From Aedes albopictus (Eukaryota; Arthropoda; Insecta; Diptera; Culicidae): 64,000 nucleotides of DNA. The notes under the pieces were generated by a model, which saw only the letters and a list, made by a program, of their open reading frames with translations, was not told where the DNA came from and did not search any database. Positions 15,501-60,597 of this stretch are shown one piece after another. The DNA is taken from NCBI RefSeq assembly GCF_035046485.1, contig NC_085136.1, positions 223,762,853 through 223,826,852 on the forward strand. The letters are read 5' to 3'. The position numbers and the translations under genes were made by a program. Each line of letters starts with the position of its first letter. Position 1 is the stretch's first letter.

Positions 15501-15768
15501 TGGCGGTTGTAGACGTTGAGCTGGCTTTACTGCTGGCCCTACTAGCAGAAAATCCACCAACTGGAAGTTGTGCTGATGGTTTTTGGCATATCGGGCATGT
15601 AAACGTTCTCTCGGGTTCTGCGATGCTCTCATTAACACCCACACACGCGTAATGCCACCATGATCCACAATGACCACAACTGACCATCCGATCGGTATCG
15701 GGTTCCTTGCACGCTTGGCAGTGGGTTTTTACCTTACGACTGCGAGTGCTTCTCGTACTGCCCGGCAT
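9568..15768 (-). CDS. BEL/Pao gag-pol polyprotein with N-terminal PHD finger
   Basis: A single 2066-aa polyprotein, full length for BEL/Pao. Residues 17-61 form a C4HC3 PHD finger (C17, C20, C31, C34, H39, C42, C58, C61). About 90-165 is a strong coiled coil. About 410-560 is the gag-like DUF1759 region (KELPTFSGNPEDWPLFISSY). Zinc knuckles start near 637 (CYICKSPEHRVKDC). An aspartic protease with FLDDGSEKTLV is near 768. The reverse transcriptase carries YVDD near 1184, and the RNase H-like domain starts near 1358 (HIYVDAS). The integrase zinc-binding part is near 1700 and its catalytic core has D in GIDYFGP, D in RSDRGTNF and E in GGAWERLV. A DUF5641-like tail ends the protein. It replicates the element through a cytoplasmic particle and nuclear integration. 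The start is the first ATG downstream of the LTR, and the stop lies inside the 3' LTR. Confidence 0.96.
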   Translation of the reverse strand: MPGSTRSTRSRKVKTHCQACKEPDTDRMVSCGHCGSWWHYACVGVNESIAEPERTFTCPICQKPSAQLPVGGFSASRASSKASSTSTTASSRAKKARLQLERLEAQKALAMKRIELERREQDRRLEQQKKEAETLLQLKLDQERQRKNAELEKLQLEMEQTVMNESFRLREIIETEDNDDDGGSRVSEQSSISKVERWRIMNSTMKTMAEKNPTDPGNEQVTATTGTLARQDSSGQPTSETEDVLGKALAGISLGPVDLEPTLGGLIGRTENVTEQDVVREQHVIPPSVNVPSPQCQSSVSNIVSAIENPPNSVSAQSNNVNQISASHGRGTVTVQDLLGESYPLPLNNQVFVPRQCTLPGVQQPSSDDRRVHLQRPPIHAIQTHDGAGPSPVQHSGYVENVDFEPTARQLAARHVMAKELPTFSGNPEDWPLFISSYNNSTRACGFSDAENLARLQRCLKGHALESVRSRLLLPSSVPHVLATLETLYGRPELLIHSLLQKVRNVPAPKQDRLDTLIGFGMAVQNLSDHLEAGRQEAHLNNPMLLFELVEKLPAHMKLDWSLYKQRCAAVNLRTFSQYMQTLVRAATDVTLNYDPTQYQQRTLKDKKSFCGTHTAKEDSEAVMETESAPNASYPTGPTCYICKSPEHRVKDCDEFDQKTVDDRWRIVQQIGLCRLCLGSHGRRPCKVRKQCGINGCPSRHHPMLHSTQKFSNSKAESNEPRPGPSTEKSTETNAATNHHFTGKSTLFRIIPVTLYGNNRSVTEFAFLDDGSEKTLVDEDVVKKLGVVGEPQALCLQWTSNVKRTEPNSQRLTLEIAGNNGAGRHTLKDVRTVSKLELPRQSLCYADLSASYPYLEGLPIEDYMNVLPRILIGNDNAHVTSTLKTRDGRPGEPIAAKSRLGWTVYGSSQDRTAETKHSFHICECQDDDQSVHELVEQFFSVESLGIMHVPRVESEEEQRANRILKETTKRIGQRFQTGLLWKYDYFEFPDSYPMAVRRLQCLERKMQSDPVIGDSVKRQISEYQQKGYIHRATVEELNEADIRRTWYLPLGVVINPKKPSKIRIFCDAAAKVDGTSLNTMLLKGPDFLKTLLEVLFGFRERRVALCADLKEMFHQIQIRPEDRHAQRLLWRDDPAKQPEVYLMDVATFGATCSPCSAHYVKNLNAEEHSNEYPAAADAIIRKHYVDDYLDSSDSVEEAVQLALQVKHVHSLGGFHLRNWLSNSEEVLARIGEKESQSGKLLQLEKGKSTERVLGMYWKPEQDVFTFSTSLATSVEHPTKRQALRVVMSLFDPAGLLCFFLIHGKILIQDLWRAKTEWDQLIPQELCERWIRWTTMFQNLDQISVSRCYFSQYSVRDIVSLQLHIYVDASEEAYACVAYWRAVLPNGIQVSLIGGKSKVAPLKALSIPRLELMAAVIGVRLMKTIVSGHSLAIEKTIFWCDSKTVLAWINSDHRKYRQFVACRVGEILSKSRPEQWRWISTKKNVADEATKWGKGPCFSPNSRWFRGEDDLYLPEDQWDNDQGLVIDKTNEELRICMIHREANTVPFVNWDRFSKWTRLYRAVAYVHRYVNNLRCSATRKERTNGLLTQEELHKAEATIFRWVQWEEYPDEVVALTNGHNKQPGLQFALEKNSKIRTLSPFLDELGVMRSDSRIAAAKFATLDTRYPLILPKDHRVTDLVLQWYHQMYLHANGETIVNEVRQRFHIPQLRTKVRRVGKECKMCRIKKPVPTIPRMASLPAARLRPHVRSFSFVGIDYFGPIGVKVNRSVVKRWVALFTCMTTRAIHLEVVHSLSTQSCKLAIRRFIGRRGTPVEIRSDRGTNFVGTSNDLKKEMEQTNSELASTFTNANTKWIFNPPGAPHMGGAWERLVRSVKAALAAMDTPKTPNEETFATILVEAESIVNSRPLTYIPLQSAEQEALTPNHFLLLSSSGVVQAPNTIADPKQACRTDWEHCRIMVDQFWRRWVREYLPTIARRTKWFEDVKAIEVGDLVMMVEEKTRNGWIRGRVAEINVGKDGRVRDAVVQTANGLVHRPVSRIALLDVEGSKAGPDGPLASLTGRGTVDVTD

Positions 15769-15798
15769 AATGAATCGTACGTAGCCAATCTTTTAGTT

Positions 15799-16570: not shown

Positions 16571-16728
16571 AACATTAAGGTTGCAGGTAGTTCAGGTGCC
16601 CGACGAAGTGCGTCTTCCACCTTTCAATCAACTTTCTTCTATCCGTCAATAGGCTCCCGTGCTTTTTCCTGTACATTTCGGCTCGCGGCATGAAGACGCT
16701 GCGGGATATCTTGAGATCCCAAGTAAAA

Positions 16729-18835: not shown

Positions 18836-19084
18836 ATTGAGGTCGAGCACAAAATCGACTTTTTTAATTCTTTTATCTTAAAGTATGGGTTCTTAAGAAT
18901 GCTATGTGAAATTTTCATAGAGATCCAAGCAGTACAAGCAAAGATATAACGTTTGAAACTTTGTACGCGATTATCTCGGAACTATGTTTTTTTCCGAAAA
19001 CGTCAATGCGGCGACTACTCAAGTATTGTCCATACTGTGAGGAAACGCTGATCAGTTTCGGCATGGTGTGTGATTCATTCACAG

Positions 19085-20599
19085 GACGAAAGACTTCCGG
19101 CCCCTGACCTCCAAGAGATTGAGGAGGAGATTGGCCGGTTGAAAAACAAGAAAGCCGCTGGAGCAGATCAACTACCAAGCGAGCTTCTAAAATGCGGTGG
19201 AGAAGCTCTGGGTCATTACCAAGATTTGGGAGGAGGAAGTATTACCGGAGGAATGGATGGAAGGTATCTACATCTACAATCCCATCTACAAAAAGGGCGA
19301 CAAGTTGGATTGCGGGAACTACCGCGCGATCACATTACTGAGCGCTGCCTACAAGATACTCTCTCAAATTTTATGCCGCCGTCTATCACCGATTGCAAGA
19401 GAGTTCGTGGGGCAATATCAGGCTGGATTTATGGGTGAACGCGCTACAACGGACCAGATGTTCGCCATCCGCCAGATGTTGCAGAAATACCGCGAATACA
19501 ACGTGCCCACACATCACTTGTTCATCGATTTCAAATCGGCGTACGATACAAACGATCGAGAGCTGCTATGGCAGATTATGCAGGAATACGGATTCCCGGA
19601 TAAACTGATACGATTGATCAAGGCGACGATGGATCGAGTGATGTGCGTAGTTCGAGTATCAGAGACACTCTCGAATCCCTTCGAATCTCGCAGAGGGTTA
19701 CGGCAAGGTGATGGTCTAACGTGCTTGCTGTTCAACATTGCGTTAGAGGGTGTAATAAGGAGAGCGGGGATTAACACGAGGGGTACGATTTTGCTGATGA
19801 TATTGATATTATTGCTCGTAAATTTGAGATGATGGCGGAAACGTACATCCGATTAAAGAGTGAAGCCAGGCGAATCGGATTAGTCATTGATGTGTCGAAG
19901 ACAAAGTACATGATGGCAAAGGGCTCCAGGGATGAATCACCGCGCCCGCCGCCCCGAATGTATACCGACGGTGATGAAATCGAGGCGGTTGACGAATTCG
20001 TGTACTTGGGCTCATTGGTGACCGCCGACAACGACACAAGCAGAGAAATTCAGAGGCGCATTGTGGCAGGAAATCGTGCTTACTTTGGACTCCGCAGAAC
20101 TCTACGATCGAATAAAGTTCGCCGTAACACGAAGTTAACTATCTACAAAAAGCTGATTAGACCGGTCGTCCTCTATGGGCACGAAACGTGGACCCTACGT
20201 ACAGAGTACCAACGCGCCCTTGGAGTTTTCGAACGGAAGGTGTTGCGTACCATCTACGGCGGAGTGCAGATGGAAGACGGGACTTGGAGAAGGCGAATGA
20301 ACTACGAGCTGCATCAGCTGCTGAGAGAATCAAACATTGTCCACACCGCGAAAATCGGGAGGCTACGGTGGGCAGGTCACGTCATCAGGATGTCGGATAG
20401 CAATCCGACTAAAATGGTTCTCGAGAGTCATCCGACCGGTACAAGAAGACGTGGAGCGCAGCGAGCTAGGTGGGTCGACCAAGTGGAGGACGATCTGCGG
20501 ACCCTACGCAGAGTGCGGAACTGGAGACAAACAGCCATAGACCGAGTAGAATGGAGACGGCTACTATGTACAGCAGAGGCCACCCCGGCCTTAGCCTGA
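19085..20599 (+). pseudogene. RTE/JAM-type LINE reverse transcriptase remnant
   Basis: The 3' two-thirds of an RTE-clade LINE ORF (endonuclease missing). Segment 1 reads PDLQEIEEEIGRLKNKKAAG. A frameshift near 19200 leads into LSAAYKILSQILCRRL, HHLFIDFKSAYDTNDRELLW and RRGLRQGDGL. A second lesion near 19790 deletes about ten codons before ADDIDI and shifts frame again. The rest (SKTKYMMAKGSRDESPRPPP to VEWRRLLCTAEATPALA, TGA at 20597-20599) is continuous and includes RLRWAGHVIRMSDSNP. The element is 5'-truncated at about 19080. The other copy of the family is the split one at 44655-59790. Confidence 0.85.
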
Positions 20600-42415: not shown

Positions 42416-42420
42416 GGATA

Positions 42421-43555
42421 AAGGGTGATACGGTCAAAATTTGGTCACACGATTTTTTTCATAACTTTAGACTGCGTGCACCAAAACAGCTGAATTTTGG
42501 ACCAGTAATGCTACATTATATGTAGCTTATACCATAAAATTTTCATCAAAATCAATTGAGTATTGGTTGATATATAGACAAAACCATCGACCTACCTTTG
42601 TAAAATTTTGTACAAAGGCGCTCCATAGTAAATTTTCGGAAATTTAAGGTCAATAAAGCACAATTTTGATTATAGAACTACCAATACTGCTCCGATTTTT
42701 ATCAAAATTTTACAGTATAGTACTATTATGAAAATACGTTCTTAGTAAAATTTTGAGGCATTTTGTATGAATACTTTCAAAGTTGTAGCAGTTTGAATAT
42801 GAAAAAAACTGATCGGGTTCCACTTAAGCAAATATAACTTTGTAACGGCTGGATCAAATTGAATGAAATTTTTACACAACATTTTGATATGCATACTACA
42901 CATACAGAAAAATTTTCATTGAAATCGGTTAAGTATCTCTGGCTCTATAAATAAAACAGTAAAAATGTATGAATCCTCTTTGCACAAAATTTTAAAATTG
43001 CGGATCTCAGGGTTCAACAATATCTCCGCAAATACTAGACCGATTTTGATGAAAATTTTATGGTACAAGCTACATATAATGTACCATTACTGATCCAAAA
43101 ATCAGCTGTTTTGGTGTACGCAATCTAAAGTTATGAAAAAAATTGTGTGACCAAAATTTGACTTGACTCGACAAAATTTGACAAAATTTGACCACCTAAA
43201 CAAATATAACTTTGTAACGGCTGAATCAAATTCAATGAAATTTTTACATAACATGTTGATATGTATACTTTACACACAGAAAAATTTTCATTGAAATTGG
43301 TTCAGTATTTCTGGCTCTATAAAAAAAAGAGTAAAAATGTGTTCTTATTTTTTAATCCACTTTGTACAAAATTTTAAAATTGCAGTTTTTAGGATTCACA
43401 ATCTCTCCGCAAATACTAAACCGATTTTGATGAAAATTTTATGGTATAAGCTACATATAATGTAGCATTACTGGTCCAAAAATCAGCTGTTTTGGTGTAC
43501 GCAATCTTAAGTTATGAAAAAAATTGTGTGACCAAATTTTGACCGTATCACCCTT
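42421..43555. mobile_element. 1135-bp MITE, TA target, AAGGGTGATACGG ends
   Basis: TIR AAGGGTGATACGGTC at the left and GACCGTATCACCCTT at the right, flanked by TA at 42419-42420 and 43556-43557. The inverted similarity continues through GTCACAC. The right half carries an internal direct duplication: CAAATATAACTTTGTAACGG at 42829 and 43200, each followed by about 330 similar bases. A partial inner terminus lies at about 43150-43195. Non-coding. Confidence 0.87.
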
Positions 43556-43559
43556 TAGG

Positions 43560-44654: not shown

Positions 44655-45351
44655 TTGAACATGTGTCAAGTTTGTGGGAAGACTGTACGCAACACCTTCC
44701 GTTTGAATACTCCAAGGGCGCGTTGGTCCTCTGCACGTAGGATCCATGCTCATAGAGGATTACCGGTCTAATCAGCGTTTTGTAGATAGTTAACTTCGTG
44801 TAACGGCGAACTTTGTTCGATCGTAGAGTTCTGCGGAGTTCAAAATAAGCTCGATTTCCTGCCACAATGCGTCTCTGAATTTCTCTGATGGTGTCGTTGG
44901 CGGTGGTCACCAGTGAGCCAAAGAACACGAATTCTTCAACCGGCTCGATTTCATCACCGTCGATATAAATTCGGGGTGGCGGGCGCGGTGATTCCTCTCT
45001 GGAGGCATTTGCCATCATGTACTTTGTCTTCGACACATAAATGACTAATCCGATTCGCCTGGCTTCACTCTTTAGTCGGATGTACGTTTCCGCCATCGTC
45101 TCAAATTTACGAGCTATAATATCAATTTTATCAGCGAAACCAAGCAGCTGAACGGACTTCCTGAAAATCGTCCCACTTGTGTTTATCCCCGCTCTCCTTA
45201 TTACACCTTCTAAGGCGATGCTAAACAGCGAGCTCGAAAGATCATCACCTTGCCGTAACCCTCTACGAGATTGGAAGGGACTCGAGCACGTCCCTGATAC
45301 TCGAACTATACACATCACTCGATCCATGTTCGCCTTGATCAATTGTATCAG
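44655..45351 (-). pseudogene. RTE LINE, RT 3' part (segment 1 of a split copy)
   Basis: Minus-strand frame from 45342: IKANMDRVMCIVRVSG, RRGLRQGDDLSS, LLGFADKIDIIARKFE (the catalytic ADD is altered to ADK), then SKTKYMMANASREESPRPPP and LRSNKVRRYTKLTIYK. It breaks off after the ERKVLR equivalent near 44680. The upstream continuation is at 48873-49313, on the other side of the provirus at 45352-48872. The next segment upstream is at 58329-59790. Confidence 0.87.
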
Positions 45352-45527
45352 AGCCAGGAGTTTCGGCTTTGCGATACTCTTTTTAAAAAACCTTACGCTT
45401 CAACTACTCACCAAATAAAGAGAGCAAGCCGCATGGCGCGGGCACTTTTATTGAAAAACTAGCCGACCCTGCATTTCCTATCGATCCTATGGCTACTTAC
45501 CGACGCGCAACGTGTCACCAAATGATG
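45352..45527 (-). repeat. Errantivirus-like 3' LTR, main part
   Basis: Starts AGCCAGGAGTTTCGG and matches 48685-48853 with scattered differences, including a GATC insertion near 45482. The last 18 bp of this LTR (TGACTGCAATTCCTAACG) are at 47208-47225, beyond the TIR element at 45528-47207. Confidence 0.82.
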
Positions 45528-47207
45528 CCCGAGCAGAGGAGAACAGCAAGTTAACAACTACGAAATCACATAACCTGTTTTTATATCTTATTTTGTTATT
45601 ATTAAATTAACAAGGCATAGCTTTTCCATAACAAATTTTGTTAGACAATCTCATTTTGTTATTATCAAGCTATTGATATACATTAACTGAATGACATTTA
45701 AATAACATGTTTTGTTGAAGTACAAGTTTAGTTATTGTTGTACTATTGATCAACTTATCAGCAATAGCACAACAGTAACAAGTTTTGAAATCACAACAAC
45801 AATTCGACAATTATGTATGACATGTCCCATCGTGTTGTTCCATTTTTGTATTCAGTTAAAAAGGAAATTCCTGAACGACTCCTTTTAAGAATTCCTTAAA
45901 TAATTTTTGGATAAGCACTTGGAAGTTCTGGAGGAACCTTTCGATATTTTCTTAGAAATTCCGAAGTTAATTCTTCAATTATTAGGATTCTTGACAGAAT
46001 CTTTTGAAAAACTCCTGGAGAATCCTTCGGAAAAACTCATGGTGAAATCCTCACACAAATTTTCAGAAAATCTTAAGGTGAACTTCAGGACTAATGATCA
46101 CAGGAAACTCTGAAGTAGCCCTTGAAGGGATTCTATGCAGGATTCTGGAGGAATTTCTAGAGGAGTCTTTGAAAATCCATGAAAGATTCCGTCAAAGAAC
46201 TCTCGGAGAAATTTCTGGAAGATTTTTGGAGTCATTTATAGACAAGTTTATGGCCAAATCTGCTGACAAATTTTTGGAAGAATTTTATGACGAAGTCATT
46301 TGATAAACATAAAAGGGGTTTTTGACGGGATCCTTAAAGAAATAAATAGAGGAATTAAAGAAAAAAATATTGCAAAAATTTCTGGTGAAAGTCCTGTAGG
46401 AATCATCAGAGGAAGTTCAGGAGAAATTATAGCAAAATTTTTGAAGGAATTCTTGTTGAATCTTGGGGGAATATTCGACATAATTCTTGAATCCAGGGAA
46501 AATCGGAGAAATTAATACAATCTTTCCAGGAAAATTTTAATAATCTGTACAATATTTCCAATATCCCAAAAAATTTCTGCAAAACTATTGAGCATTCTAA
46601 AAATTCTTCAGTTTCTATGCTGAAAAAAACAAAGGACACACGTGCTTCGAAAACAATTAAAATATAACAGTTTATAAATTACAGGGGGAAATCGTAGCTC
46701 GTATTTGGTAATATAAAAATTACTAAAGTTCGATTATCTTGTGACTTCAAATCTCTTAGAATGAATTAAAAAGCTGAATATACTATTTTTCGATCATTTG
46801 AAAATATTTCTTACGTCAGAGTGATGAACCTCATGTTATTGGCGGGTTTGTGAGAAAAAGCGAATAAGTTTATATAATAAGTATTATAACTTATTTAGTA
46901 ACGAGTTTGGTATCATAGCAAATTTTGCTCTCCGATTATTATCAATAACATATTAATATCAAAATTTGTTATTGAAATATTTTCCGAATTCACTGTTATT
47001 AAGTTGTTATTGAAACTAACAAAACAAGTTATTAAAATGGTTTTCCTGGAACATCTTTTTGTTATGGAATTTGTTATTTTGCCGCTTATGACAGACAAAT
47101 TTTACAATATGTTATGGTAATAATTTAAAAATAATCGATTTTATTATTCAGTTATTTTGCCGAAATAACACAGCTCCTTATGCTGTTGTTATTCCCTTCT
47201 GCTCGGG
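45528..47207. mobile_element. 1.68-kb TIR element inside the LTR
   Basis: The inverted ends CCCGAGCAGAGGAGAACAGC and GCTGTTGTTATTCCCTTCTGCTCGGG interrupt the LTR at ATGATG|TGACTG. The intact LTR at 48853 reads ATGATGACTG, so the duplication is about 2 bp (TG). Many inverted AACAAATTTTGTTA-like motifs lie near both ends. The middle (45840-46600) is GGAATTTCTGGAGG-type degenerate satellite. The short open frames there are satellite by-products. Confidence 0.72.
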
Positions 47208-47272
47208 TGACTGCAATTCCTAACGGCCTCCCCCTTGGTGGAAAGCTGTCCTCAGCGTTTCTGCGTCCGGTG

Positions 47273-48411
47273 TCACTCCTGAGGAACCATGGCGATCTTC
47301 GGGTACTCGTCTTCGTAATGCTCTATTGCGTCTTCTGTTGTCCGTTGGCCTCGATTGTCTTGTACGTGTGGTGATAACTTCGGTGTTAGTGCTTTCTTGA
47401 TCAAAATCACAGCTGTTCCAATGAAAATGATGATTACTAGGGAACCAAATCCGAACGATGACCATCCGATTAGTTTGAGCTTGAAGTGGATGTTGCCCGT
47501 TTTTAGATTGATGTGGTCTTAGTGGTCTCGTTGTTCCAGATGCAATGTCTGTAAATATTTTATTGGGATTTTGTTGACTATCGCCGTATAATTTACCTTT
47601 AAACCGGTGGTTGGTGTAAATGACGCCAAACGAATTGCCTTGTCGATGATGGAGTACATCTCGTCGTTGATAAAAAGCGTGCAGTTGGAGAACTGAACCA
47701 AAAACGATCCTTTGAGGTGTCTTGTCAATGTGCAATTTGATGTCAGTGTCACTTCGGCACCATTGATGATTAGGTTTGAGTCGCCGACTCTTTTGATGAT
47801 GTTGTTGGTGTATGTTCGCACTGTAGCTGTGGGACTATGAGCTAGCTCTCCTCTAAAAAGTTGTTGGATGCACTTTGTTACTGGTTCTAGTTGTGAGTTA
47901 GAACAGACGTAAAGATTTCTATTCATAGCGCATGGTGATTTCAGGGCGAATGAGTTTTGCCCTTGTAGATAAAGGTGTTCACGCAACACTATACAATATA
48001 TACAATTACCCTACTAAGAACCTCACACCCATTGTAATACACATAACACACAACTAGCAGTCAAATAAACAGTATCAAGTATGTCTCCGCCATGGCTGGA
48101 CGGGAAATAACTGTCGTTTCATTTATTCAACCAGAGCGTAGGAAACATTCCTGGCCGGTGTGCCAACAAAAGGTTTGTCGGTATATGGATACGGGAGTTG
48201 TTGTATATCACTGGTTCAATATAGTTGAGGCTATATTCCGTGTCTTTAATCCTAGGGATCTTTAGGATGTAAGCGATTGATTCTTTTGAAGACACAACGT
48301 AAGCACTGGTGAAGTCTAAAGCTCCTATAAAAATACCACTGCCTTCTAAAAGATTTTGGACTCTCGTCATCTCATCGGCGGTGATTACTCTGCTGCTGGG
48401 GATGCCGTGTT
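47273..48411 (-). pseudogene. Errantivirus-like env remnant
   Basis: Envelope-type glycoprotein remnant of an insect endogenous retrovirus, minus strand. The first block (48411-48119) is open and ends at a stop. About 110 bp without matching frame follow. The second block (47989-47519) includes several NxS/T sites and cysteines, then an in-frame TAA at 47519. The same frame reopens and carries a hydrophobic membrane segment at about 47464-47395, a short basic cytoplasmic tail, and ends at TGA 47273. No start codon or signal peptide is preserved (a stop precedes 48411). It is a broken copy that cannot make the full protein. Family assignment rests on the TM layout, glycan sites and position before the PPT and 3' LTR. 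Confidence 0.7.
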
Positions 48412-48684
48412 AAGCATTTTCAATTTTCACTCACTATTCAATCACAAGCACTTTTTTCACCAAGAATTAAGAAAAAAGGTTACTTACGAGGATATTATGA
48501 GCATAGGACTCATCGATGTAGAGGTTAAACTGAAAGCGGGCCTTAGGCTGTCATCCTCCAAGGTATCGCGTCGTCCCGATGATGATTTATTACACCGGAT
48601 GGTTGACGTGGCTTCTCCTCGGGATCACTATCGCTGGGCCTGTTTGTATACACTTCCAGAGTTCAATCCTACCACCGCTGCACC

Positions 48685-48872
48685 AGCCAGGAGTATCGGT
48701 TTTGTGATACTCTTTTTAAAAAACCTTACGCTTCAACTACTCGCCAAAGAAAGAGAGCAAGCCGCATGGCGTGGGCACTTTTATTGAAAAACTTGCTGAC
48801 CCTGCATTTCCTATCCTATGGCTACATACCGACGCGCAACGTGTCACCAAATGATGACTGCAATTCCTAACG
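48685..48872 (-). repeat. Errantivirus-like 5' LTR
   Basis: Starts AGCCAGGAGTATCGG and ends ATTCCTAACG. Homologous to 45352-45527 plus 47208-47225. The RTE sequence resumes at CAGTTTATCCGGG. Confidence 0.82.
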
Positions 48873-49313
48873 CAGTTTATCCGGGAACCCGTATTCGTGC
48901 ATAATCTGCCATAGCTGTTCTCGATCGATTGTATCAAACGCCGATTTTCAAATCGAAGAACAAGTGATGTGTGGGCACGGCGTATTCGCGGCATTTCTGC
49001 AACACATGGCGGATGGCGAACGTCTGATCCGTAGTACCACGTTTACCCATGAATTAAGAATTGATATTCCAGCCACGAACTCTCTTGCAATTGGTCATAG
49101 ACGGTGGTATAAAATTTGAGAGAGTATCTTGTAGGCAGCGCACAGTAGTGTTGCGATAGTTCCCGCAATCCAACTTGTCGCCCTTTTTGAAAATGGGACA
49201 CACGATACCTTCCATCGATTCTTCCGGTAATAGTTCCTCCTCCTAAATCTTGGCAATGACCCAGTGTAGTGCTCTCACCAGTGATTCTACACTGTATTTT
49301 AGAAGCTCGCTTG
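48873..49313 (-). pseudogene. RTE LINE, RT 5' part (segment 2 of a split copy)
   Basis: Minus-strand frames contain the equivalents of SELLKYSVESLVRALHWVIA, YKILSQIL, VPTHHLFFDLKI and DREQLWQIMHEYGFPDKL. Frameshifts and stops are present. The left border joins 45351 across the provirus. The right border (AGCTCGCTTG) joins 58329 across the foldback element, with CTTG duplicated. Confidence 0.85.
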
Positions 49314-49468
49314 CCACTAAGGGCCAGAATCACAATCTAGCGGAACAAAATTAATTACTCCAAAACGAAGTATTTCCGGCACATGGTATCTTCGACAAAG
49401 TTGATTGACATCAGCAGGGGCATCTATTGCTAAGAACGCAGTAGTTCGCAAATCGTCCGCATAGGTGG

Positions 49469-49668
49469 TGTAGGGTCTACCCTATAGCATTAAGAGACAG
49501 CATCGCAGTAGGCACAGTTGGGAAGAGAGAGGATTCATGGTCAGCGACCGACAGAGTGTAGTCGTGTGAATGAGAGCTCTAGAGTAAAGTGGTGGAAATA
49601 TAGTGAAAGTATTATTCAGGAAGTTTGGGCATTATTAAAGAATAATTGTGATATCCGAATATCCTACA
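49469..49668 (+). repeat. Gypsy 5' LTR
   Basis: 200 bp, TGTAGGGTCTACCC to CGAATATCCTACA, identical by eye to 56194-56393. The target duplication GGTGG lies at 49464-49468. Just downstream ACTGGCGACGAGGAT (49669 on) supplies a TGG-starting primer-binding site; the tRNA is not assigned. Confidence 0.95.
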
Positions 49669-52096
49669 ACTGGCGACGAGGATAACGGTAAGAGTTTTTA
49701 TTTCAATTTTAAAACTAATAAATGTGAAAGTGATATAAGAATGCCGCTCTTTGGCTCGGTTTGGAAATGATATGTGTTGATGGATGTATCGGATGGTGTG
49801 CTTCTATAGAATGTGATTCGAAATTAAATATCGACACTTTGGGTCTTTATTTCAGAGACTTTCAGCCCTTGGCTGGTTCGTCTCTACGTGTACGGAATTG
49901 TTGGGTTGAGTGAGAATTCTTTGATAAATGAAAATGTTTCGATTTCGATTATGCATTTTCTGCTGTGCTGACTTGCAATGGGAAGTGAAGGGAGTACCAC
50001 CGTCGTCGTTGGTGAAAAAAAAAAACATGTTGCTATAGTAACACGGTGCGCGGGCTACGCATGCTGCGATACACGCTGTCCACTTGCGACGATTCTAAAA
50101 ATTCAAAATTTTGCTTTCTCACTCTAGCGTGTTGGTTACGTCACTCATTGGTTGGGCTTCTGCACTGCTTCTGCTAGCGCTCTGCTTGGTTTGAATGATG
50201 ATGGTGATGATGATAATGATGACGATGAAGACGTACCTATGTGCGATGCGCGCATGCGTGCGGCGAAGGGTAAGAGAGTGATGGAAAACGAAATCAATGA
50301 ATTGTGTCATTGGTGGAAACGAGAGAGATGTTTGTCGTCTAGCTAATATTGGACGGTGGTTGAACGGTATTCGGAACCTGAGAACCTCAGTTCAGAACGA
50401 TTAACGGTATTTGGTGAACCCAGGAGTACAGCATTACTTGTTTTGTTTTCTTATGTATAAACTGATTGTTCATATCAGGAATGAAGGGAATATTGCAGTA
50501 CATCATCATTGTGCCGTGTTGTTCTATTGCAAAGAATTGGGAAAACTAACGTGAAGAAAATTTGGTTATGTTTGTTTATGCGATCCAGTTTCATTAGCTG
50601 TTTGTTTGTTTGTTGTTCCCGAGTATCCCGAAGTAACAAAATGAAAAAAAGGGGAACTCGCTCTTCATTTGAATTTATTTTTCTTTTATTTTAATGGGAA
50701 TTATATACAAAATTGAGAAATTAAACCACATGGCATAGTTACTTCAGTACATGTATACGGTAAAAAAAAATACATTATTATATTTTCCAAGTATATTACC
50801 TATATTAAATAATGGGCAAATTAAAATAAAGAAAGTCATGAAAGATGTTTCCGTTGGTTGTAATTAATTTAAATGTTTATATTTTCCTGCTTATCGATGA
50901 CAAATAAATGATGATGCGAAACAAAATATTTTTTAATTTCTTATTATATGTGTGTCTCTAAACGATTGAAGTATAATGTTTCAAAGATGGGTCTTGTCCA
51001 ATATCTACTGTTGATACCGTTATTTTCAGCCATTGATGAAGTAGAGGATTACTGAACCAGTAGCGTTCAGAGGAGTTGTGATTGAACCAGTAGCGTTCAT
51101 AGGATTACTGAACCAGTAGCGTTCAGAGGAATATTGTTCGAACCAGTAGCGTTCGTAGGATTACTGAACCAGTAGCGTTCAGAGGAATGTATATTGAACC
51201 AGTAGCGTTCGGAGGATTACTGAACCAGTAGCGTTCAGAAGCATGTCTATTGAACCAGTAGCGTCCATAGGAATGTTTATTGAGCCAGTAGCGTTCGGAG
51301 GATTACTGAACCAGTAGCGTTCAGAGGAATGTTTATTGAACCAGTAGCGTTCGGAGGATTACTGTACCAGTAGCGTTCAGAAGAATGTCTTTTGAAGCAG
51401 TAGCGTTCAGAGGTATGTTTATTGAGCCAGTAGCGTTCGGAGGATTACTGAACCAGTAGCGTTCAGAGGAATATTGGTTGAACTAGTAGCGTTCGTAGGA
51501 TTACTGAACCAGTAGCGTTCAGGGGAATGTCTATTGAACCAGTAGCGTTCAAAGAAATGTTTACTGATCCAGTAGCGTTCAGAGGATTACTGAACTAGTA
51601 ATATTCAGAGAAGTTGATTGAACTAGGACCGTTCTGATTTTTTTCAATTAGTAGCGTTCTGAGAGTTACTGAAACTGGACCAGTAGTTTTCTAAGAAAGG
51701 ATGAAAGTTGAATGAATCAGTAGACGACTAAGGACTGGTAAATGCGAAAGATCATTTCATAGATATAAAAAATAATAATAATAAATAAATAAAATTGAAA
51801 ATAAAAAAGTGAAGTATTTTGCGTTGAATAATTTATTCACATTTACTACATTAACATGAACATAAACATATGTTTATGTATGAATAGTAAAAGCATAAAA
51901 TGGTTTGATAAATGCTGATGATATGCTTTCCAGCTATGGGTTTTTGAAATATTGGGGATATGTTAATACCTGAAAATTATTTGAAGTTTTCATAGCCATC
52001 ATCCGATACCATCAAACATATGTATTTTAGAATGAAAAAAAAAATGTCTACACATGAATAATGTGGTAGAAATTCTTGTATATACTACTGTTCCAG
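49669..52096 (+). other. Long untranslated leader of the Gypsy element
   Basis: 2.43 kb between the LTR and gag. Contents: a hairpin retroposon tail at 49853-49885 (minus sense), a GAT/GAC trinucleotide run at about 50196-50232, AT-rich DNA, the tandem array at 51045-51660, and an ATAATAATA/AAATAAAT run at 51770-51795. The open frames here are short and lack similarity to retroelement proteins. Confidence 0.8.
51045..51660 (+). repeat. ~20-copy tandem repeat, core GAACCAGTAGCGTTC
   Basis: About twenty copies of GAACCAGTAGCGTTC at 28-29 bp spacing, separated by alternating linkers of AGAGGAATGTTTATT and GGAGGATTACT type, decaying at the right end. The core has inverted GAAC/GTTC half-sites 7 bp apart. 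The array lies in the untranslated leader, about 440 bp before gag. It is not CRISPR: the linkers are themselves repeated, and the setting is eukaryotic. Confidence 0.93.
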
Positions 52097-53700
52097 ATGG
52101 AAGAATCACGTCAAATTCCCCCATTCCGTTGTGAATCAATCGAGAAGGGCAAACTTTCTCGAGAATGGGAAACGTGAAAGTGGTCTTTGGAGTGCTATTT
52201 CGAAGCGTATAGCATCAGCGATCAGAAAATAAAGCGAGCCAAACTACTCCACTTGGGAGGAGTAGAACTGCAGAGAATTTTTCGAAGTCTGCCCGAACAT
52301 GATAAAACACCTCTGGTAGCATTGGAACCCAAGGTGTATGATTTTGCCATTGAGTTACTTGATACGTACTTCCAAGCTGGCAGACAAGATGTGATTGAAC
52401 GCCGTAAGCTCCGTAAATTGAAGCAAAAGTCAAATGAAAAGTTTTCTCACTATGTCATCCGGTTGAGACAACAGGCACTGAACTGTGGTTTCGAGAAGTA
52501 TGGAACAGAAGTCACCGAAATCTTGAAGGAAATTTATCTGGTCGATGTCATAGTGGAGAATTGCCGTTCAGATGATCTTCGCAAGGCCATTCTCAAACGC
52601 GATCGATCGATCAGAGAAATTGAGGAAATAGCAGCGACAATTGAGGATACGGATCAGCAAATGAAGGAGTTGAAGGATCACGCCAATACGTCCCGAGAAG
52701 TAGCAGTTTATGAAGTCAACCGACCAAATCAGGCACGACCTGCGGTGCGCAGAAACTCAACAGCAGATCGTAGAACACACCGTGGGCAGCTGTTCGGGGT
52801 TACATCCAAGCGTGAAGTTGCTACCAAACTGACGGCGTTCAAAGGCTCGAAATCATCTTGTTTTGCATGTGGGCAGTCCGGGCATTTGGCAAATTCACCT
52901 GATTGTCCTGCACGTGGTCGTATATGTCGTCGTTGTCGTGAATTGGGTCACTTCGAAACTGTTTGCAGGAAGCAAAAACAGAGATCAGAAGCTGTAAGGA
53001 GACCAAGGAAGATCTACAACATCGATAAATCGTCAGCAGCAGAGCAAGAGGAGGAAGATAAGGATAAGCGAGATGATTCTCCGGAGCCGAAAAAGGTGTA
53101 TTATGCGTTCTATGGAGGAAACCAAACAAATCTTTTGGACGGAGTTATTGGAGGAATCGCGGTGAAGGTTTTGATTGATTCGGGAGCAGATGCAAATTTG
53201 ATTCGGCTGGAAACGTGGAAAATGATGAAAGAGAGGAAGGTCATTGTAGTAACGTCGACGAAAGGGTCATCACGAGTTTTGAAAGGATATGGAAGCGATA
53301 CACCGTTGGACGTGGTAGGCACATTCGAGGCCGAAGTTTCTATCGGGCGTAGGACTACAGTGGCGGAATTCTTCGTTGTCAATGGCGGACAGAAGGACAT
53401 TTTGGGAGACGCGTCTGCTAAGGAGCTGGGTGTGCTGAAAGTTGGAATCGAAGTTAACAACGTCGACAAAGAAATGAAACCGTTCAGTAAAATCAAGGGT
53501 GTGAAGGCGCAGATAAGAATGATGGCAGATGCTCGGCCTGTCTTTCAGCCAGTTCGTCGAGTGCCGATTCCAATGGAGGATGCAGTAAACCGGAAGCTGG
53601 ATCAATTATTGCAACGAGATATCATTGAAGTGAAACAAGGACCGGCAACATGGGTTTCTCCGCTGGTAATCGTTGGGAAGCGAACCACGAATTTGTTTGG
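52097..53700 (+). pseudogene. Gypsy gag-protease with in-frame TGA
   Basis: ATG 52097 opens MEESRQIPPFRCESIEKGKL. An in-frame TGA stands at 52175-52177 (codon 27; probably once Trp), after which the same frame runs on to 53719. Gag core: SLECYFEAYSISDQKIKRAK and LRQQALNCGFEKYG. Zinc knuckles are CFACGQSGHLANSPDC at 52858 and the canonical CRRCRELGHFETVC at about 52930. The aspartic protease is VLIDSGADANLI at about 53170. The frame then begins the RT (RPVFQPVRRVPIPMED, ATWVSPLVIV) but shifts at about 53672-53690. Restarting at a codon after the TGA would drop about 30 residues. Confidence 0.88.
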
Positions 53701-54047
53701 ATCTACGACAAGTGAATGAAGCGGTAGTCCGAGAACATTTTCCTATGCCGGTAGTGGATGAGTATCTAGCAAGACTCGGAAGAGGAAAAATCTGGAGCAA
53801 GCTGGATATTCGTGAAGCATTTCATCAGATTGAGCTGGACGATGATTCGAGGGACGTGACAACATTCATCACGAATAAAGGATTGTTCCGGTTCAAACGG
53901 CTTCCGTTCGGACTCGTGACTGCCCCTGAAATATTTCAAAGAATAATGGAGGAGATTTTGTCAGGTTGTGAAGGTACATACTGGTACCTAGATGATGTGA
54001 TGGTAGAAGGTGAGACGAAGGAAATCCACGATAAAAACTTGAAGAAG
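53673..54047 (+). CDS. Gypsy reverse transcriptase, exon-like segment 1
   Basis: After a one-base register change relative to gag, the frame reads SEPRICLDLRQVNEAV, KLDIREAFHQIELDDD, RLPFGLVTAPEIFQ and the catalytic YWYLDDVMVEG, ending DKNLKK at 54047. It is followed by the 78-bp interruption. The frame has no AUG at its start; expression would need frameshifting or a corrected sequence. Confidence 0.9.
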
Positions 54048-54125
54048 GTATTGTAAAGAGATAACAGCAAACATAATGTAATAAACTTGAATGGAATAAT
54101 AAAATTAGTTATGTAAAATTTTTAG
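54048..54125 (+). other. 78-bp GT-AG intron-like interruption of pol
   Basis: Starts GTATTG after AAGAAG and ends AAAATTTTTAG before GTGCTCGAT. It is very AT-rich and contains in-frame TAA right after entry. Its removal (phase 0) joins NLKK to VLDRFKERGVELNWEKCEF, the expected Gypsy RT thumb sequence. The length suits a minimal insect intron. It could also be an unrelated small insertion. Confidence 0.7.
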
Positions 54126-56171
54126 GTGCTCGATAGGTTCAAAGAACGTGGCGTAGAGCTTAACTGGGAGAAGTGTGAGTTTGGGGTATCGTGGCTGGAG
54201 TTTCTCGGTTATGACATTTCGAAAGAAGGTATAAGTCCATCTAGTACCAAAGTCAAAGCTGTATTATCCTTTCGCCCTCCTACATCTGAATCAGAAGTAC
54301 GAAGTTTTCTAGGATTGGCAAACTATCTAAACAAATTCATCACAGATCTCGCCACTATAGCTGAACCATTGAGAGATCTGACGAAAAAGGCAGTGAAATT
54401 TGTTTGGAGCGACGAACATGACCGAGCTTTTCAGCAAATCAAAAATAAGCTAGCTGCAGCCACTAAACTTGGTTTTTTTGACGTCAGAGATAAAACCACA
54501 GTCATGGCGGATGCTAGCCCCACCGGACTTGGTGCAGTGTTGATTCAAACTAACAGCTTGGATGTTTCTCGAGTGATTTGTTATGCATCAAAATCACTCA
54601 CGGATACCGAGCGGCGCTATTGCCAAACGGAAAAGGAGGCTTTGGCACTAGTGTGGAGCGTGGAACGTTTTCACATGTATCTATACGGAAGACCATTTGA
54701 ACTAATGACAGACTGCAAGGCTTTGGAATATCTGTTCACTCCTCGCTCTAAGTCTTGTGCCCGAATAGAACGCTGGGTATTACGGCTTCAATCGTTTGAT
54801 TATCAAATAGTACATATTCCCGGAAGCCAGAATATAGCCGATAGTCTTTCTCGACTAGCTATAGTGAAACCCAGTCCGTTTGATGCAGATGAAGAGTTGA
54901 TCATAAGAGAGATAGCAGTTTCGGCTGGCTCGTCAGTGGCCCTAAAATGGAATGAAATACGAACAGAAAGTGACAATGATGCTGAAATTTCAGAGGTCAT
55001 ACAAATCATCCAAAGCGGAAATGAAAAGGACATGCCGATTGCTTACAAGGTCATTGCGAGTGAACTATGCATCATTGATACTGTATTGCTACGGGTGGAC
55101 CGTATCATCATTCCCAGAAGTCTGAGATCCAGGGTATTGCAAATAGCTCATGAAGGTCATCCAGGAGTAAGAATGATGAAGAGCCATCTGAGAACGAACG
55201 TGTGGTGGCCTCGAATGGATCAAGACGTCGAGAATTTCGTGAAACAGTGTAAAGGATGTACGTTAGTATCGGCTCCAAACCCACCAGAACCTATGATTCG
55301 ACGGGAACTCCCAGATCAGCCATGGAGAGATATTGCAGCTGATTTCCTTGGTCCATTACCGGAGGGGCAATATTTGTTGGTTGTAGTAGACTATTACAGT
55401 CGCTTTATGGAAGTTTGCGAGATGAATGTGATAACAGCTGCTGAGACCATCAAAGAACTTGCCATCATATTCAGTCGATATGGGCTTCCTTCAACTTTGC
55501 GTGTTGACAATGGCCCACAATTCAGCTCAAAATGTGAAGATTTCAAGGAGTTTTGTGAAAGTAACGGGATTGCATTAGTAAATACAATACCGTTTTGGCC
55601 TGCCATGAACGGCGAAGTAGAACGCCAAAACAGATCGTTACTGAAAAGGATGCGAATTGCTCAAGAATTGGGAAAGGACTGGAGAGCAGAAATGCGGAAG
55701 TATCTGCTCACATATCACGCAACGAGTCATAGTACCACCGGAAAGTCTCCTGCTGAATTGATGTTTGGCAGAAAAATTCGTAGCAAGCTACCCCAAGTTG
55801 AATCTGCCAACTTAAATGACGGAGAAGTACGTGACCGAGATGCAGTATCAAAGGAAAAAGGAAGAGTTTATGCAGATTCAAAACGGAGAGCAAAGGAAAG
55901 TGATATTAGCATAGGAGACCGCGTTGTAAGCACAAGGATGAAGAAGAATAACAAGTTAGAAGCAGATTTTTCTGCAGAGGAATTTGAAGTTATTAAAAAG
56001 GTAGGAGGGGATGTAACAGTTAAGTCGTTGGAAACAGGAAAGAAATACAGACGAAATGTAGCTCATTTGAAAAGGATCGAAAATAACACAGGGCCGCATG
56101 AGCGCGAAGGAATCCGTGAAAAACGTGTTAGGGTAGAACCTGCAAGATTCAAAGATTTCATCCCACATTAA
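54126..56171 (+). CDS. Gypsy RT end, RNase H and integrase
   Basis: 681 codons uninterrupted. The RT C-terminal part is ELNWEKCEFGVSWLEFLGY. RNase H has VMADASPTGLGAVL, QTEKEALALVWSVERF and LMTDCKALEYL. The integrase zinc domain is HEGHPGVRMMKSHL through CKGC. The catalytic core is D in IAADFLGPLP (about 55340), D in RVDNGPQF (about 55500) and E in NGEVERQNRSL (about 55610). A basic C-terminal tail (KKYRRNVAHLKRI) ends at the TAA at 56169-56171. It follows on from 54047 in the same register once the 78 bp are removed. All catalytic residues are present. Confidence 0.93.
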   Translation: MLDRFKERGVELNWEKCEFGVSWLEFLGYDISKEGISPSSTKVKAVLSFRPPTSESEVRSFLGLANYLNKFITDLATIAEPLRDLTKKAVKFVWSDEHDRAFQQIKNKLAAATKLGFFDVRDKTTVMADASPTGLGAVLIQTNSLDVSRVICYASKSLTDTERRYCQTEKEALALVWSVERFHMYLYGRPFELMTDCKALEYLFTPRSKSCARIERWVLRLQSFDYQIVHIPGSQNIADSLSRLAIVKPSPFDADEELIIREIAVSAGSSVALKWNEIRTESDNDAEISEVIQIIQSGNEKDMPIAYKVIASELCIIDTVLLRVDRIIIPRSLRSRVLQIAHEGHPGVRMMKSHLRTNVWWPRMDQDVENFVKQCKGCTLVSAPNPPEPMIRRELPDQPWRDIAADFLGPLPEGQYLLVVVDYYSRFMEVCEMNVITAAETIKELAIIFSRYGLPSTLRVDNGPQFSSKCEDFKEFCESNGIALVNTIPFWPAMNGEVERQNRSLLKRMRIAQELGKDWRAEMRKYLLTYHATSHSTTGKSPAELMFGRKIRSKLPQVESANLNDGEVRDRDAVSKEKGRVYADSKRRAKESDISIGDRVVSTRMKKNNKLEADFSAEEFEVIKKVGGDVTVKSLETGKKYRRNVAHLKRIENNTGPHEREGIREKRVRVEPARFKDFIPH

Positions 56172-56193
56172 CGGAATAGAAGCTAAGGGGGGT

Positions 56194-56393
56194 TGTAGGG
56201 TCTACCCTATAGCATTAAGAGACAGCATCGCAGTAGGCACAGTTGGGAAGAGAGAGGATTCATGGTCAGCGACCGACAGAGTGTAGTCGTGTGAATGAGA
56301 GCTCTAGAGTAAAGTGGTGGAAATATAGTGAAAGTATTATTCAGGAAGTTTGGGCATTATTAAAGAATAATTGTGATATCCGAATATCCTACA
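56194..56393 (+). repeat. Gypsy 3' LTR
   Basis: 200 bp, identical to the 5' LTR by eye, preceded by the purine tract at 56180-56192 and followed by GGTGG (56394-56398). Confidence 0.95.
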
Positions 56394-57126
56394 GGTGGCG
56401 CCACCATCTAACTTCTTTGTTTTACGTCCTAGAGACTTGGCATCTTCGGCAAAGTTGTTCATTTTGGCAAAATAAATAACTCTTTCTCAGACGTCAAAAT
56501 TCCACAGCCTACTGTTTTCGAGTTATTTTAAAAATAAAATACATTCAATGAAAAACCAGTTTTTTAAGCTTATTTTGACATTTTTACTAGAAACCATGTG
56601 AGTTTAAATTTTTTCCCAATGCAAAAATGTCAAACCAAACACATTCTATGGAAATATGTTCAATATTATCATTTTAAATTTGAAATTAAAATACAAATTC
56701 GATAAATAGTGTGAATTTCAAGCCTTAATATCTCACAAAGCGCAAAAAATCGCAACTTCAAATTTTCAGCAAATACGAAGCAATACTAGGTGAACATACT
56801 GTCAAAAATTTGGAGAAGTATTTTTGGTGTTTTTGAGATAATAGCTTTCTAGTAACACCATAAATATAAGTAGTGCCAGCGTGTAACTTTTTACTGTTAC
56901 ACATTAGAGAGTTTATGTCTTCGAGAAAGTTGTTCATTTTGACTGAATAAACAACTGTTTCTTAGACGTCAAAATTCCACGGCCTACTGTTTTCGAATTA
57001 TTGTATATAAACTAGATTTTATTGATAAAATTTGTCAATAAAACACATTTTGATGCAATAGTATGAACTATTTTTTTATTGTTTTAATTTTTACGATACA
57101 TAGTAGGTCATGAAAATGTCAGTATA

Positions 57127-57253
57127 GGGTAAAAGCACTAGACTTCGCCACTGCTCTAGTCTTCGCCCCCTCCATACAAATCCCATTTTTTATGTATGAA
57201 GTGGCGAAGATTAGAGCATTTTTTTAGGGGGGCGAAGTCTAGTGTTTTTACCC
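57127..57253. mobile_element. Small MITE, TA target
   Basis: The ends GGGTAAAAGCACTAGACTT and AAGTCTAGTGTTTTTACCC are flanked by TA. The middle has two inverted GTCTTCGCC-type blocks and CCATACAAA. It lies in the spacer of the foldback palindrome. Confidence 0.78.
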
Positions 57254-58489
57254 TACTATTGTCAGCATGGCTCAAGGTAACTTTTAACTTTTTGCATGTT
57301 ATTTTCTAAATGTTTTAAGCTTAACCTTTTGTGTCAATCATTTTAAATTTTAGAGCGCGAAATATCTTGCTGAGAGCTCGTGGATTTGTTCCTGGATGGA
57401 AAGGACGTTGATCAATCTCTAGAGATTGTGAAACTGGAGCTCCCCGAAACTGACATTTTCATGACCTACTATGTATCGTAAACTCAAAAACAATAAATTC
57501 ATTCTATTGCATCAAAATGTGTTTTATTGACAAATTTTATCAATAAAATCTAGTTAATACACAATAACTCGAAAACAGTAGGCCGTGGAATTTTGACGTC
57601 TAAGAAACAGTTGTTTATTTAGTCAAAATGAACAACTTTCTCGAAGACATAAACTCTCTAATGTGTAACAGTAAAAAGTTACACGCTGGCACTACTTATA
57701 TTTATGGTGTTACTAAAAAGCTATTATATCAAAAACACCAAAAAATACCTCTCAAAATTTTTGACAGTATGTTCACCTAGTATTGATTCGTTGTTGCTGA
57801 AAATTTGAAGTTGCGATTTTTTGCGCTTTGTGAGATATTAAGGCTTGAAATTCACACTATTTTTTCGAATTTGTATTTTAATTTCAAATTTTTAATGATA
57901 ATATTGGATATATTTCCATAGAATGTGTTTGGTTTGACATATTTGCATTGGGAAAAAAAATTTAAACTCACATGGTTTCTAGTAAAAATGTCAAAATAAG
58001 CTTAAAAAACTGGTTTTTCATTGAATGTATTTTATTTTTAAAATAACTCGAAAACAGTAGGCTGTGGAATTTTGGCGTCTGAGAAAGAGTTGTTTATTTT
58101 GCCAAAATAAACAACTTTGCCCAAGACGCCAAGTCTCTAGGACGTAAAACAAATAAGTTAGATGGCAGCGCCACCTATGCGGACGAGTTGCGAACTACTA
58201 CGTTTTATCAATAGATGCCCCTGCTGATGTCAATCAACTTTGTCGAAGATACCATGTGTCGGAAATGCTTCGTTTTGGAGTAATTAATTTTGTTCCGCTA
58301 GATTGCGATTCTGGCCCTTAGTGGCTTGGTAGTTAACCTGTTCCAGTGGCTTTGTCGATTTTCAACCGGCCAAGCTCCTCCTCAACCTCTTGGAGGCTGG
58401 GGGCTGGAAATCTTCCGTTCTGCGCACGTACTCCTAGATCCACGCCATCTTCGGTGCTTGCAACTTTGTCACTGAGGTGCTCATCGTAA

Positions 58490-58655
58490 GGGGCTGTCCA
58501 TAAACCACGTGGTCATTTTTTTGGGACTTCTCAACCCCCCCCCCCCCTCGCGTGGTCATTAGTCCATACAAAATTTTTTATTCGTCCATACAAAATGGTC
58601 ATTGGCCGAACCCCCCCCCCCCCCCCTCATGACCACGTGGTTTATGGACAGCCCC
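58490..58655. mobile_element. Tourist-like MITE, TAA target
   Basis: 166 bp with perfect ends GGGGCTGTCCATAAACCACG and CGTGGTTTATGGACAGCCCC. TAA lies at 58487-58489 and 58656-58658. Two long C-runs inside. The 3-bp TWA-type target fits PIF/Harbinger (Tourist). Confidence 0.88.
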
Positions 58656-59185
58656 TAATGCTGCCACCACTTCTCGACTACCTCATGCTCGCTCGAGAGA
58701 AGATTCCCGTGATTGGCTCGGCCCATGTCGGCTTGTGGCACGAAGCCTTTACGCGAGCGGTTCTCGTAGAACTTCCTTATGTCCTTTGCGCGGAACAGTC
58801 TATACCGTGTCTATACCGTGCCTTATTCGCTCTCGTACGGTGTTGTAGCATTCTCGCCCATGCATTCTTCTCGTTTTTCAACTGTTCACATTCGTCGTCG
58901 TACCAGTCGTTTCTGTGATTCGGGGTCGCGAAGCCTAGTGCTGCCGCCGAGGTACTACCTATGACGGATCGGTTGTCGCCTCCAGCAATCTTCCAGTGTA
59001 GCTGCACCAAGCTGCTCTTCCGTTGGTAGGGCTAACTGCTGCGCGTAGTCTTGAGCCACTTCTACGTTACGCAACTCCTCGATGTTAAGCCGCGGCGTTC
59101 GACTTCGACGAGTGGTATTAACCGTCGAAAGTTTTGAGCGTATACATACAGCGACTAGGTAGTGATCCGAATCTATATTCGCACT

Positions 59186-59244
59186 AAGAGACAAACCAGC
59201 CAAGGGCTGAAGGTCTCTGAAATAAAGACAAATCAATCAATCAA
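59186..59244 (+). mobile_element. 59-bp retroposon tail with 12-bp TSD
   Basis: An extremely 5'-truncated insertion consisting of the hairpin AGAGACAAACCAGCC...GGCTGAAGGTCTCT, then GAAATAAAGAC and (AATC)n. It is flanked by TATATTCGCACT at 59174-59185 and 59245-59256. It shows that this hairpin plus AATC tail is the 3' end used for target-primed reverse transcription. Confidence 0.88.
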
Positions 59245-59931
59245 TATATTCGCACTGCGGTATGTGCGGACATTGGTTGTATCCAAGAAACCGTCGATTA
59301 GAACATGGTCGATTTGGTTTTCTGTTTGATGATCAGGCGATCTCCAGTCCTGATTTCGTCGCATGGGTCTTTGGCATGAGACTCTTTGCCGATTGTACCG
59401 AATCGTAATTTCTCCTATGTTATTCGCAATGGGGATTTTTACAGGTGGCCAACACTCCTATCTCGCTAGTAGTCTCAACCAACACTAGGAAGACCACACT
59501 GATGGGGCTACCAGCTTGGATCTAGCTGGAAGTGGTACAGCGTTTCTTACTTAGCCGCTGGATGCCAGAACAGACGCTGTTTGAGCCGCACCTCCTTGGT
59601 GAACAAACGCTCGGGTCGTACCTCCCCAATCTAGCTGAAGTCAGAAAGACAACAGTGCCCAGGCTGCACTACCAGCTAAGCACACAACTCTTAGCTGGCG
59701 GTCTTTGTCATCGCTTGACCCGTGGAAGCATGAGGTAGGAACTTGTGAGGATCAGAGCTATATTGGACGCTCTCCTTATCGACTCACCGTTTTGCAGCCC
59801 AACACAGTTTATAGTACATATCTCATTACGATAAGGTACCCCGGGGCAAGTGAGACCTACAGCTATATTTTGTTTTATTTTTTCGTTTTAAGGCAAACAT
59901 TCTTCATAGAAAACATAGGTAGGGTATCGCG

Positions 59932-60136
59932 CCACTTGGGCGGTGGCTTCTATATTCGTCTGTTTTCCACTATAACTCAGTCAATGTTGAATCAATTGAC
60001 TTGAAATGTTGCACAAGGGTAGATACTATACCTATCTCACCACATTCAAAAAGTTGTGTCAACTGGTTCAAATTTGACTGAGTTATAGTGGAAAACAGAC
60101 GAATATAGAAGCCACCGCCCAAGTGGCGTGATTCCC
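59932..60136. mobile_element. Nested MITE, 205 bp
   Basis: The inverted arms of about 65 bp include CGCCACTTGGGCGGTGGC and GCCACCGCCCAAGTGGCG, extending through CTGTTTTCCACTATAACTC. TA flanks on both sides. Confidence 0.8.
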
Positions 60137-60384
60137 TATCACACCAACGGATACTTTCAATTCAAAAATTGTTATTGTTCTCACCATAAAGAAACCATAT
60201 ATGTTATTGTTGTTCATATGTAATTTTCAATTCACTAAGTAAGATTAACGTACTCTACTATATTCGTTGTTTAAAAATAGAATAACAAATGAAGTAAAAC
60301 TTTTTCGGCTTCAGGATTATATTTGGAGTGCTTGCAAATTATTTTAAGCGAAAAAGCTGTAATTTATTTTCATTTATTACCTTT

Positions 60385-60597
60385 AGTTAAGGTGAATATA
60401 TAACGAAGCCACACTTCGAATTTTCAAAAGCACAAATATGAAGAGCCGAGGCTTGGTTTGCGCTGAAAAGTTGATCGATTGGCCACCACCAGCGGATAAC
60501 CAATCGATCAACTTTTCAGAGCAATCCGTCTTTTGGTTCCTCAGATTCGTGCTCTTGAAAATTTGAGGAGTGGCTTCGTTATATATTCACCTTAACT
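60385..60597. mobile_element. Nested palindromic MITE
   Basis: The ends AGTTAAGGTGAATATATAAC and GTTATATATTCACCTTAACT, continuing to CGAAGCCAC, with an inner mirrored TTGATCGATTGG / CCAATCGATCAA. Highly self-complementary. Confidence 0.78.

Follow-up and report, generated by a model that had tools for sequence, protein, structure and literature searches.

A single RTE retrotransposon copy divided by nested insertions in Aedes albopictus, with a candidate intron in the inserted Gypsy element

In a 64,000-nucleotide stretch of the Aedes albopictus genome (contig NC_085136.1, positions 223,762,853 to 223,826,852; the whole stretch is called the window and coordinates are counted from its first base), three separated minus-strand pieces of an RTE non-LTR (long terminal repeat) retrotransposon are best explained as a single copy that was present first and was then cut by nested insertions (Table 1). 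We put the probability of this reading at about 0.95, because the pieces are collinear both with another RTE copy in the window and with RTE proteins, are equally diverged, are separated by inserts with exact target-site duplications (TSDs), and give empty-site alignments that hold against displaced controls. The youngest insert, a Ty3/Gypsy copy, contains an intron-like segment in its reverse transcriptase (RT), and this segment is the part worth following.

Relative to RTE copy 2, the internal reference, the pieces of copy 1 follow one another in order, with identities of 85.5% for 44685-45351 (copy 2 20250-19605), 85.4% for 48873-49264 (19607-19208) and 83.8% for 58324-58422 (19180-19082), while bases 49265-49313, between two of these matches, are spanned by the alignment of the foldback empty-site join described below. 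The same order is found on RTE protein P0001 (903 amino acids), where the pieces cover residues 126-418, 416-564 and 564-789 and overlap at the TSDs by no more than 3 residues. An RT of the RTE clade is present and collinear with the endonuclease, and a mixed query of copies 1 and 2 matches the three best proteins at 69-73% identity. Among the eight reference proteins tried, P0011 (Aedes albopictus) is closest to copy 2 and, of the 6 stretches in which it has a match, ranks first by identity in 5, although P0007 (70 amino acids only), P0002, P0001 and P0004 score above it in the stretch 59185-58613, and its coverage of the 3’ piece is limited to 110 residues. Because the pieces are collinear with copy 2 and equally diverged from it, and are collinear on RTE proteins, they are on sequence grounds one copy. 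A preliminary description of this stretch had likewise taken them for consecutive parts of one minus-strand element, and the findings it had named in advance as speaking against this (overlapping or non-adjacent parts, or different subfamilies) were looked for and did not occur. Its sequence of endonuclease, RT start and RT end has the right order, in a degraded copy with the endonuclease N-terminus and the RTE 3’ end missing. A short RTE-like protein match lies apart from copies 1 and 2, on the minus strand at 16590-16727.

The joins between the pieces are exact to the base. For the empty-site test 50 + 50 flanking bases were joined with one TSD copy and aligned to a reference, the controls having the right flank displaced by 4-2000 bases. 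Three joins were tested, the foldback element in RTE and the provirus in RTE against copy 2, and the Gypsy copy in one arm of the foldback against its other arm; in every case the alignment continues across the join, and in each test 0/500 displaced controls scored as high. Exact TSDs flank six inserts, including CTTG for the foldback (49310-49313 / 58325-58328) and GGTGG for the Gypsy copy (49464-49468 / 56394-56398), both as read earlier from the sequence, TG for the terminal inverted repeat (TIR) element (45526-45527 / 47208-47209) and CAG, only 3 bp, for the provirus (45349-45351 / 48873-48875).

Nesting fixes part of the order of events: RTE came first, the foldback preceded the Gypsy copy, and the provirus preceded the TIR element. 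The Gypsy LTRs (49469-49668 and 56194-56393) are identical over 200 bp, whereas those of the provirus (45352-45527 + 47208-47225 and 48685-48872) show 9/190 differences and one 4-bp indel (0/200 vs 9/190, Fisher p=0.0014); therefore the provirus was probably inserted earlier than the Gypsy copy, provided that rates were equal and gene conversion did not occur. The order proposed earlier (RTE, then provirus and foldback, then TIR element and Gypsy) is thus retained. In the sequence of events that we propose, the RTE copy inserted first and was then cut by independent insertions of the foldback DNA element, an LTR element of errantivirus type of which a remnant is left, a miniature inverted-repeat transposable element (MITE) and a piece resembling a short interspersed element (SINE), after which the provirus LTR was cut by the TIR element and a foldback arm by the Gypsy LTR retrotransposon. 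From what is known of these families, RTE and the SINE-like piece would have entered by target-primed reverse transcription, the LTR elements by integrase, and the foldback, TIR element and MITE by transposase supplied in trans. Nothing seen suggests a joint function of the stacked elements.

Nesting by itself is silent on where the Gypsy copy entered the foldback, and the two may have moved into RTE as one composite unit, in which case the Gypsy insertion would not be a later event at this locus. The identity of the Gypsy LTRs over 200 bp, set against a difference of ~4% between the foldback arms (6/151 outer and 32/727 inner aligned bases, gaps aside), makes such a unit unlikely, an indirect argument as the two arms may already have been unequal when the foldback inserted. 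Three independent RTE fragments brought near each other by chance, conceivable where such fragments are common (the window has at least one further copy and the short match at 16590-16727), were rejected as contradicted by collinearity and by TSD-flanked breaks that agree to the base at two of the joins, and by the shared strand, the same divergence from copy 2 across the pieces and the predominance of P0011 as nearest reference. An assembly error joining unlinked repeats, to which genomes rich in repeats are prone, is just as improbable, since random joins would not give each insert its pair of TSDs between collinear flanks, as real insertions do.

The foldback is 9011 bp long (2081 bp without the Gypsy copy and one TSD copy) and has the long inverted arms, short centre and TSD of its class; no coding part was recognised in it, and a scan of viral contigs for the foldback end returned 0 stretches. 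The provirus measures 3521 bp; subtracting the TIR element together with one copy of its TSD leaves 1839 bp. Its description as errantivirus-like is borne out by the LTRs and by an env-like part at 47519-48010 (PF07253, Gypsy, 1.2e-06, 27.9 bits vs a cut-off of 27.5; the adjoining open reading frame (ORF) piece reaches 0.021, below cut-off). Because no Pfam match to gag or pol was found in the six distinct provirus ORF pieces scanned, it is called a deleted remnant and not a member with a full gene set. The TIR element, described earlier as 1.68 kb, is 1680 bp long and has no ORF of 100 codons inside; its terminal sequences are the same for the first 10 bases and match at 18/22 positions overall. 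The TIRs by themselves are moderate evidence, and the weight is carried by the clean break of one provirus LTR relative to the uninterrupted other. All four insertions first proposed (foldback, provirus, TIR element and Gypsy copy) are real, and the count was too low: the MITE and the SINE-like piece also lie in RTE and a small palindrome lies in the foldback. The 59-bp piece is called SINE-like for its tail and its TSD, not for a match to a family; a relative occurs at 49843-49890.

Several observations weigh against the reading of one interrupted RTE copy or against details of it. The outer edges first given, 44655 and 59790, do not hold. The 3’ edge of copy 1 is at ~44678-44685, and endonuclease homology extends to 59346 with 8/8 references and to 59469 with only one (P0012), weakly. 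Upstream of 59469 RTE identity is unproven and the endonuclease N-terminus is absent from copy 1; no RTE protein matches 59494-59758 or the window’s bases 1-900. An ORF start read by eye at ~59350-59440 was dropped, P0003 matching only from residue 245 on (E up to 0.01). The RTE 3’ end is absent as well: P0001 residues 790-903 have no match beside 44678, copy 2 and the proteins run ~114 residues past the abrupt end of copy 1, and within the window this 3’ part is present only in copy 2. The mate of the break at 44685 was sought and nothing convincing was found. The usual 5’ truncation of long interspersed elements leaves this missing 3’ end unexplained, and a later deletion or one more unrecognised insert is needed; the assignment to the RTE clade is independent of it. 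A 4-bp TSD is the rule for LTR elements of the errantivirus type, and the provirus has 3 exact bases or, when four are counted, one mismatch (TCAG/GCAG). The TIR score taken alone equals the best of 500 shuffles and is no higher, and Fisher’s test on the LTRs presumes equal rates and no gene conversion.

Table 1. Coordinates of the RTE copies, the inserted elements and their parts in the window.
Feature	Position	Strand	Basis or remark
RTE copy 1 piece 1: C-terminal endonuclease part, linker and RT start	58329..59469	minus	tblastn, 8 RTE proteins
RTE copy 1 piece 2: first part of RT	48873..49313	minus	copy 2 match and RTE proteins; frames -2 and -3, i.e. frame-shifted
RTE copy 1 piece 3: second part of RT, element 3’ end missing	44678..45351	minus	Pfam RVT_1 1.5e-07, copy 2 and proteins
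Stretch upstream of endonuclease part; possible RTE 5’ untranslated region (UTR), not shown to be RTE	59494..59758	minus	77% to window 289-553
RTE copy 2, internal reference, without 5’ part	19082..20599	plus	RTE protein matches
Errantivirus-like provirus remnant, TSD CAG	45352..48872	minus	env Pfam match and LTRs
TIR element, 1680 bp, in provirus 3’ LTR, ends CCCGAGCAGA...TCTGCTCGGG, 2-bp TSD TG	45528..47207	none	
Foldback element, TSD CTTG, ends CCACTAAGGGCC...GGCCCTTAGTGG, long inverted arms	49314..58324	none	
Small palindromic MITE-like insert, foldback centre	57125..57255	none	
Young Ty3/Gypsy copy, Mag-lineage-like, TSD GGTGG	49469..56393	plus	
Tandem repeat array, Gypsy 5’ leader, 56-, 86- and 142-bp periods	51045..51634	plus	
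Intron-like segment, GT...AG, 78 bp, phase 0	54048..54125	plus	between ORF2 and ORF3
166-bp MITE in RTE piece 1, ends GGGGCTG...CAGCCCC, TSD TAA	58490..58655	none	
59-bp SINE-like piece, (CAAT)n tail, 12-bp TSD TATATTCGCACT, in RTE endonuclease part	59186..59244	plus	

The Gypsy ORFs carry zinc knuckle, RT, RNase H and integrase in Ty3 order, and the intron-like segment interrupts the RT 17 residues behind its YLDD motif. The segment is 79% AT vs 57% and 56% in its flanks, has stops in all three frames, and is more AT-rich than any of 755 equally long coding windows (maximum 68%). Homologs matching both ORFs place the end of ORF2 directly beside the start of ORF3, that is, a GT-AG segment lies here between codons that are contiguous in relatives, the arrangement expected of a spliced element. 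Among the 120 homologs listed, 62 match both ORF2 and ORF3 and 5 more begin upstream and read through. In another 11 the first residue is precisely the one that follows the segment, and 4 (P0129, P0151, P0155, P0167) have a short extension ending in Q right before that residue, as a CAG acceptor would give. A further 37 begin further inside (32 within 46 residues, 5 at 63 to 183), and one (P0184) is misplaced. The nearest relative, P0121 (98%), begins 63 residues in and is uninformative on the segment.

A midpoint-rooted tree was made of 119 homologs and the window copy, P0184 being left out, and the 37 proteins that start further inside were scored as interrupted, a label that may not be right for all of them, the 5 far ones in particular. 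One group of 68 rows (support 100) holds 51 interrupted sequences, the window counted, and 17 continuous ones, while the remaining 52 rows comprise 2 interrupted and 50 continuous. The label changes 10 times on the tree (at least 8 by supported branches), compared with a mean of 39.5 for shuffled labels and 0/500 shuffles as low, a clustering part of which would arise from near relatives anyway. The interruption is thus clustered on the tree, yet not as one clean origin without later changes. Gene-caller habits could shape the start sites, although a shared start residue needs a shared upstream block. Because 51 of 68 rows are interrupted in the group vs 2 of 52 in the rest, the 78-bp segment is probably a conserved intron.

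Several points count against an intron. Of the 17 continuous rows of the 68-row group, five come from annotated genes of named mosquitoes (P0144, P0152, P0158, P0168, P0179), possibly spliced by the annotator, and the other 12 may lack the segment or derive from RNA. The closest pair of an interrupted and a continuous protein is 88% identical, so that no pair shows splicing or loss within one family. Finally, the donor of the segment is GTATTG, unlike the usual GTAAGT. On balance we lean, with odds somewhat better than even, towards a mosquito Ty3/Gypsy group with a conserved phase-0 spliceosomal intron just behind YLDD, in which unspliced RNA would serve as genome and yield Gag with a truncated Pol, spliced RNA would encode the full enzyme, splicing would set the Gag:Pol ratio, and genomic RNA would have to escape splicing. 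If this is true, survival of the intron through repeated reverse transcription would imply that the RNA serving as genome is left unspliced, and in a mosquito retrotransposon group the output of Gag and Pol could be tested for control by splicing.

The copy itself appears imperfect elsewhere. ORF1 and ORF2 lie in different frames and part within the RT near 53681 (53660-53720) despite the identical LTRs, and the protein is continuous at this break in 6/6 homologs that match both ORFs; for this reason the copy looks defective, or the assembly in error, at that point. In the long leader, AGTAGCGTTC occurs 19 times in 51045-51700 and 0 times elsewhere in the window. A search of viral contigs with the Gypsy pol gave 11 stretches with no relative among them.

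Elsewhere in the window, an uninterrupted minus-strand BEL/Pao ORF of 2074 codons with a PHD finger (9568-15792) is 100% identical to Aedes albopictus LOC134289727 over the 801 residues searched, and direct and inverted repeat units of ~150-195 bp occupy 42419-43557. On the 5’ side of the RTE copy, 59920-60138 and 60385-60597 form MITE-like palindromes (83% and 84% complementary).

A nested stack of this kind is ordinary for the Aedes albopictus genome, transposable elements making up 55.03% of assembly AalbF2 (PMC7448346). Beyond local annotation it matters little, providing one clean relative order and a warning that counting fragments overstates RTE copy number. Nested elements and relative dating from them are standard (PMC3014933, PMC7728395). 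As in transposition-in-transposition dating (TinT; PMC3014933), nesting serves as a relative clock, here at a single locus and without a family-wide matrix. The provirus resembles the Errantivirus/Gypsy lineage in the one ORF piece that matches the env family (PF07253) just above cut-off, and differs in lacking recognised gag and pol.

The features of the Gypsy copy fit the Mag lineage as described for Culex (PMC3286476, in the sections available), no named Mag reference being in the tree. LTRs of ~200 bp, TSDs of mostly 5 bp and tandem repeats in the 5’ UTR, the last in three described families, are common to both. The interruption of the RT by an intron-like segment sets the window copy apart; in those sections of PMC3286476 ‘intron’ is used of host genes only (10 places), and the same usage holds for the sections available of PMC3026039. 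An intron inside the RT of an insect Ty3/Gypsy element was described in none of the titles and abstract starts found, most subscription literature lying outside the search, and one may already have been published. Splicing within LTR retrotransposons is itself known: in copia, BARE1, Ogre and CRR it affects the coding region, in Bagy2 it concerns env (PMC3735527), and Cer1 too has a spliced mRNA (PMC10309623). The candidate segment would share with the elements of PMC3735527 a removable portion of the coding region that could set a product ratio, and differs from them, as that text presents them, in its position inside the RT, behind YLDD, and in its occurrence in a mosquito Ty3/Gypsy group.

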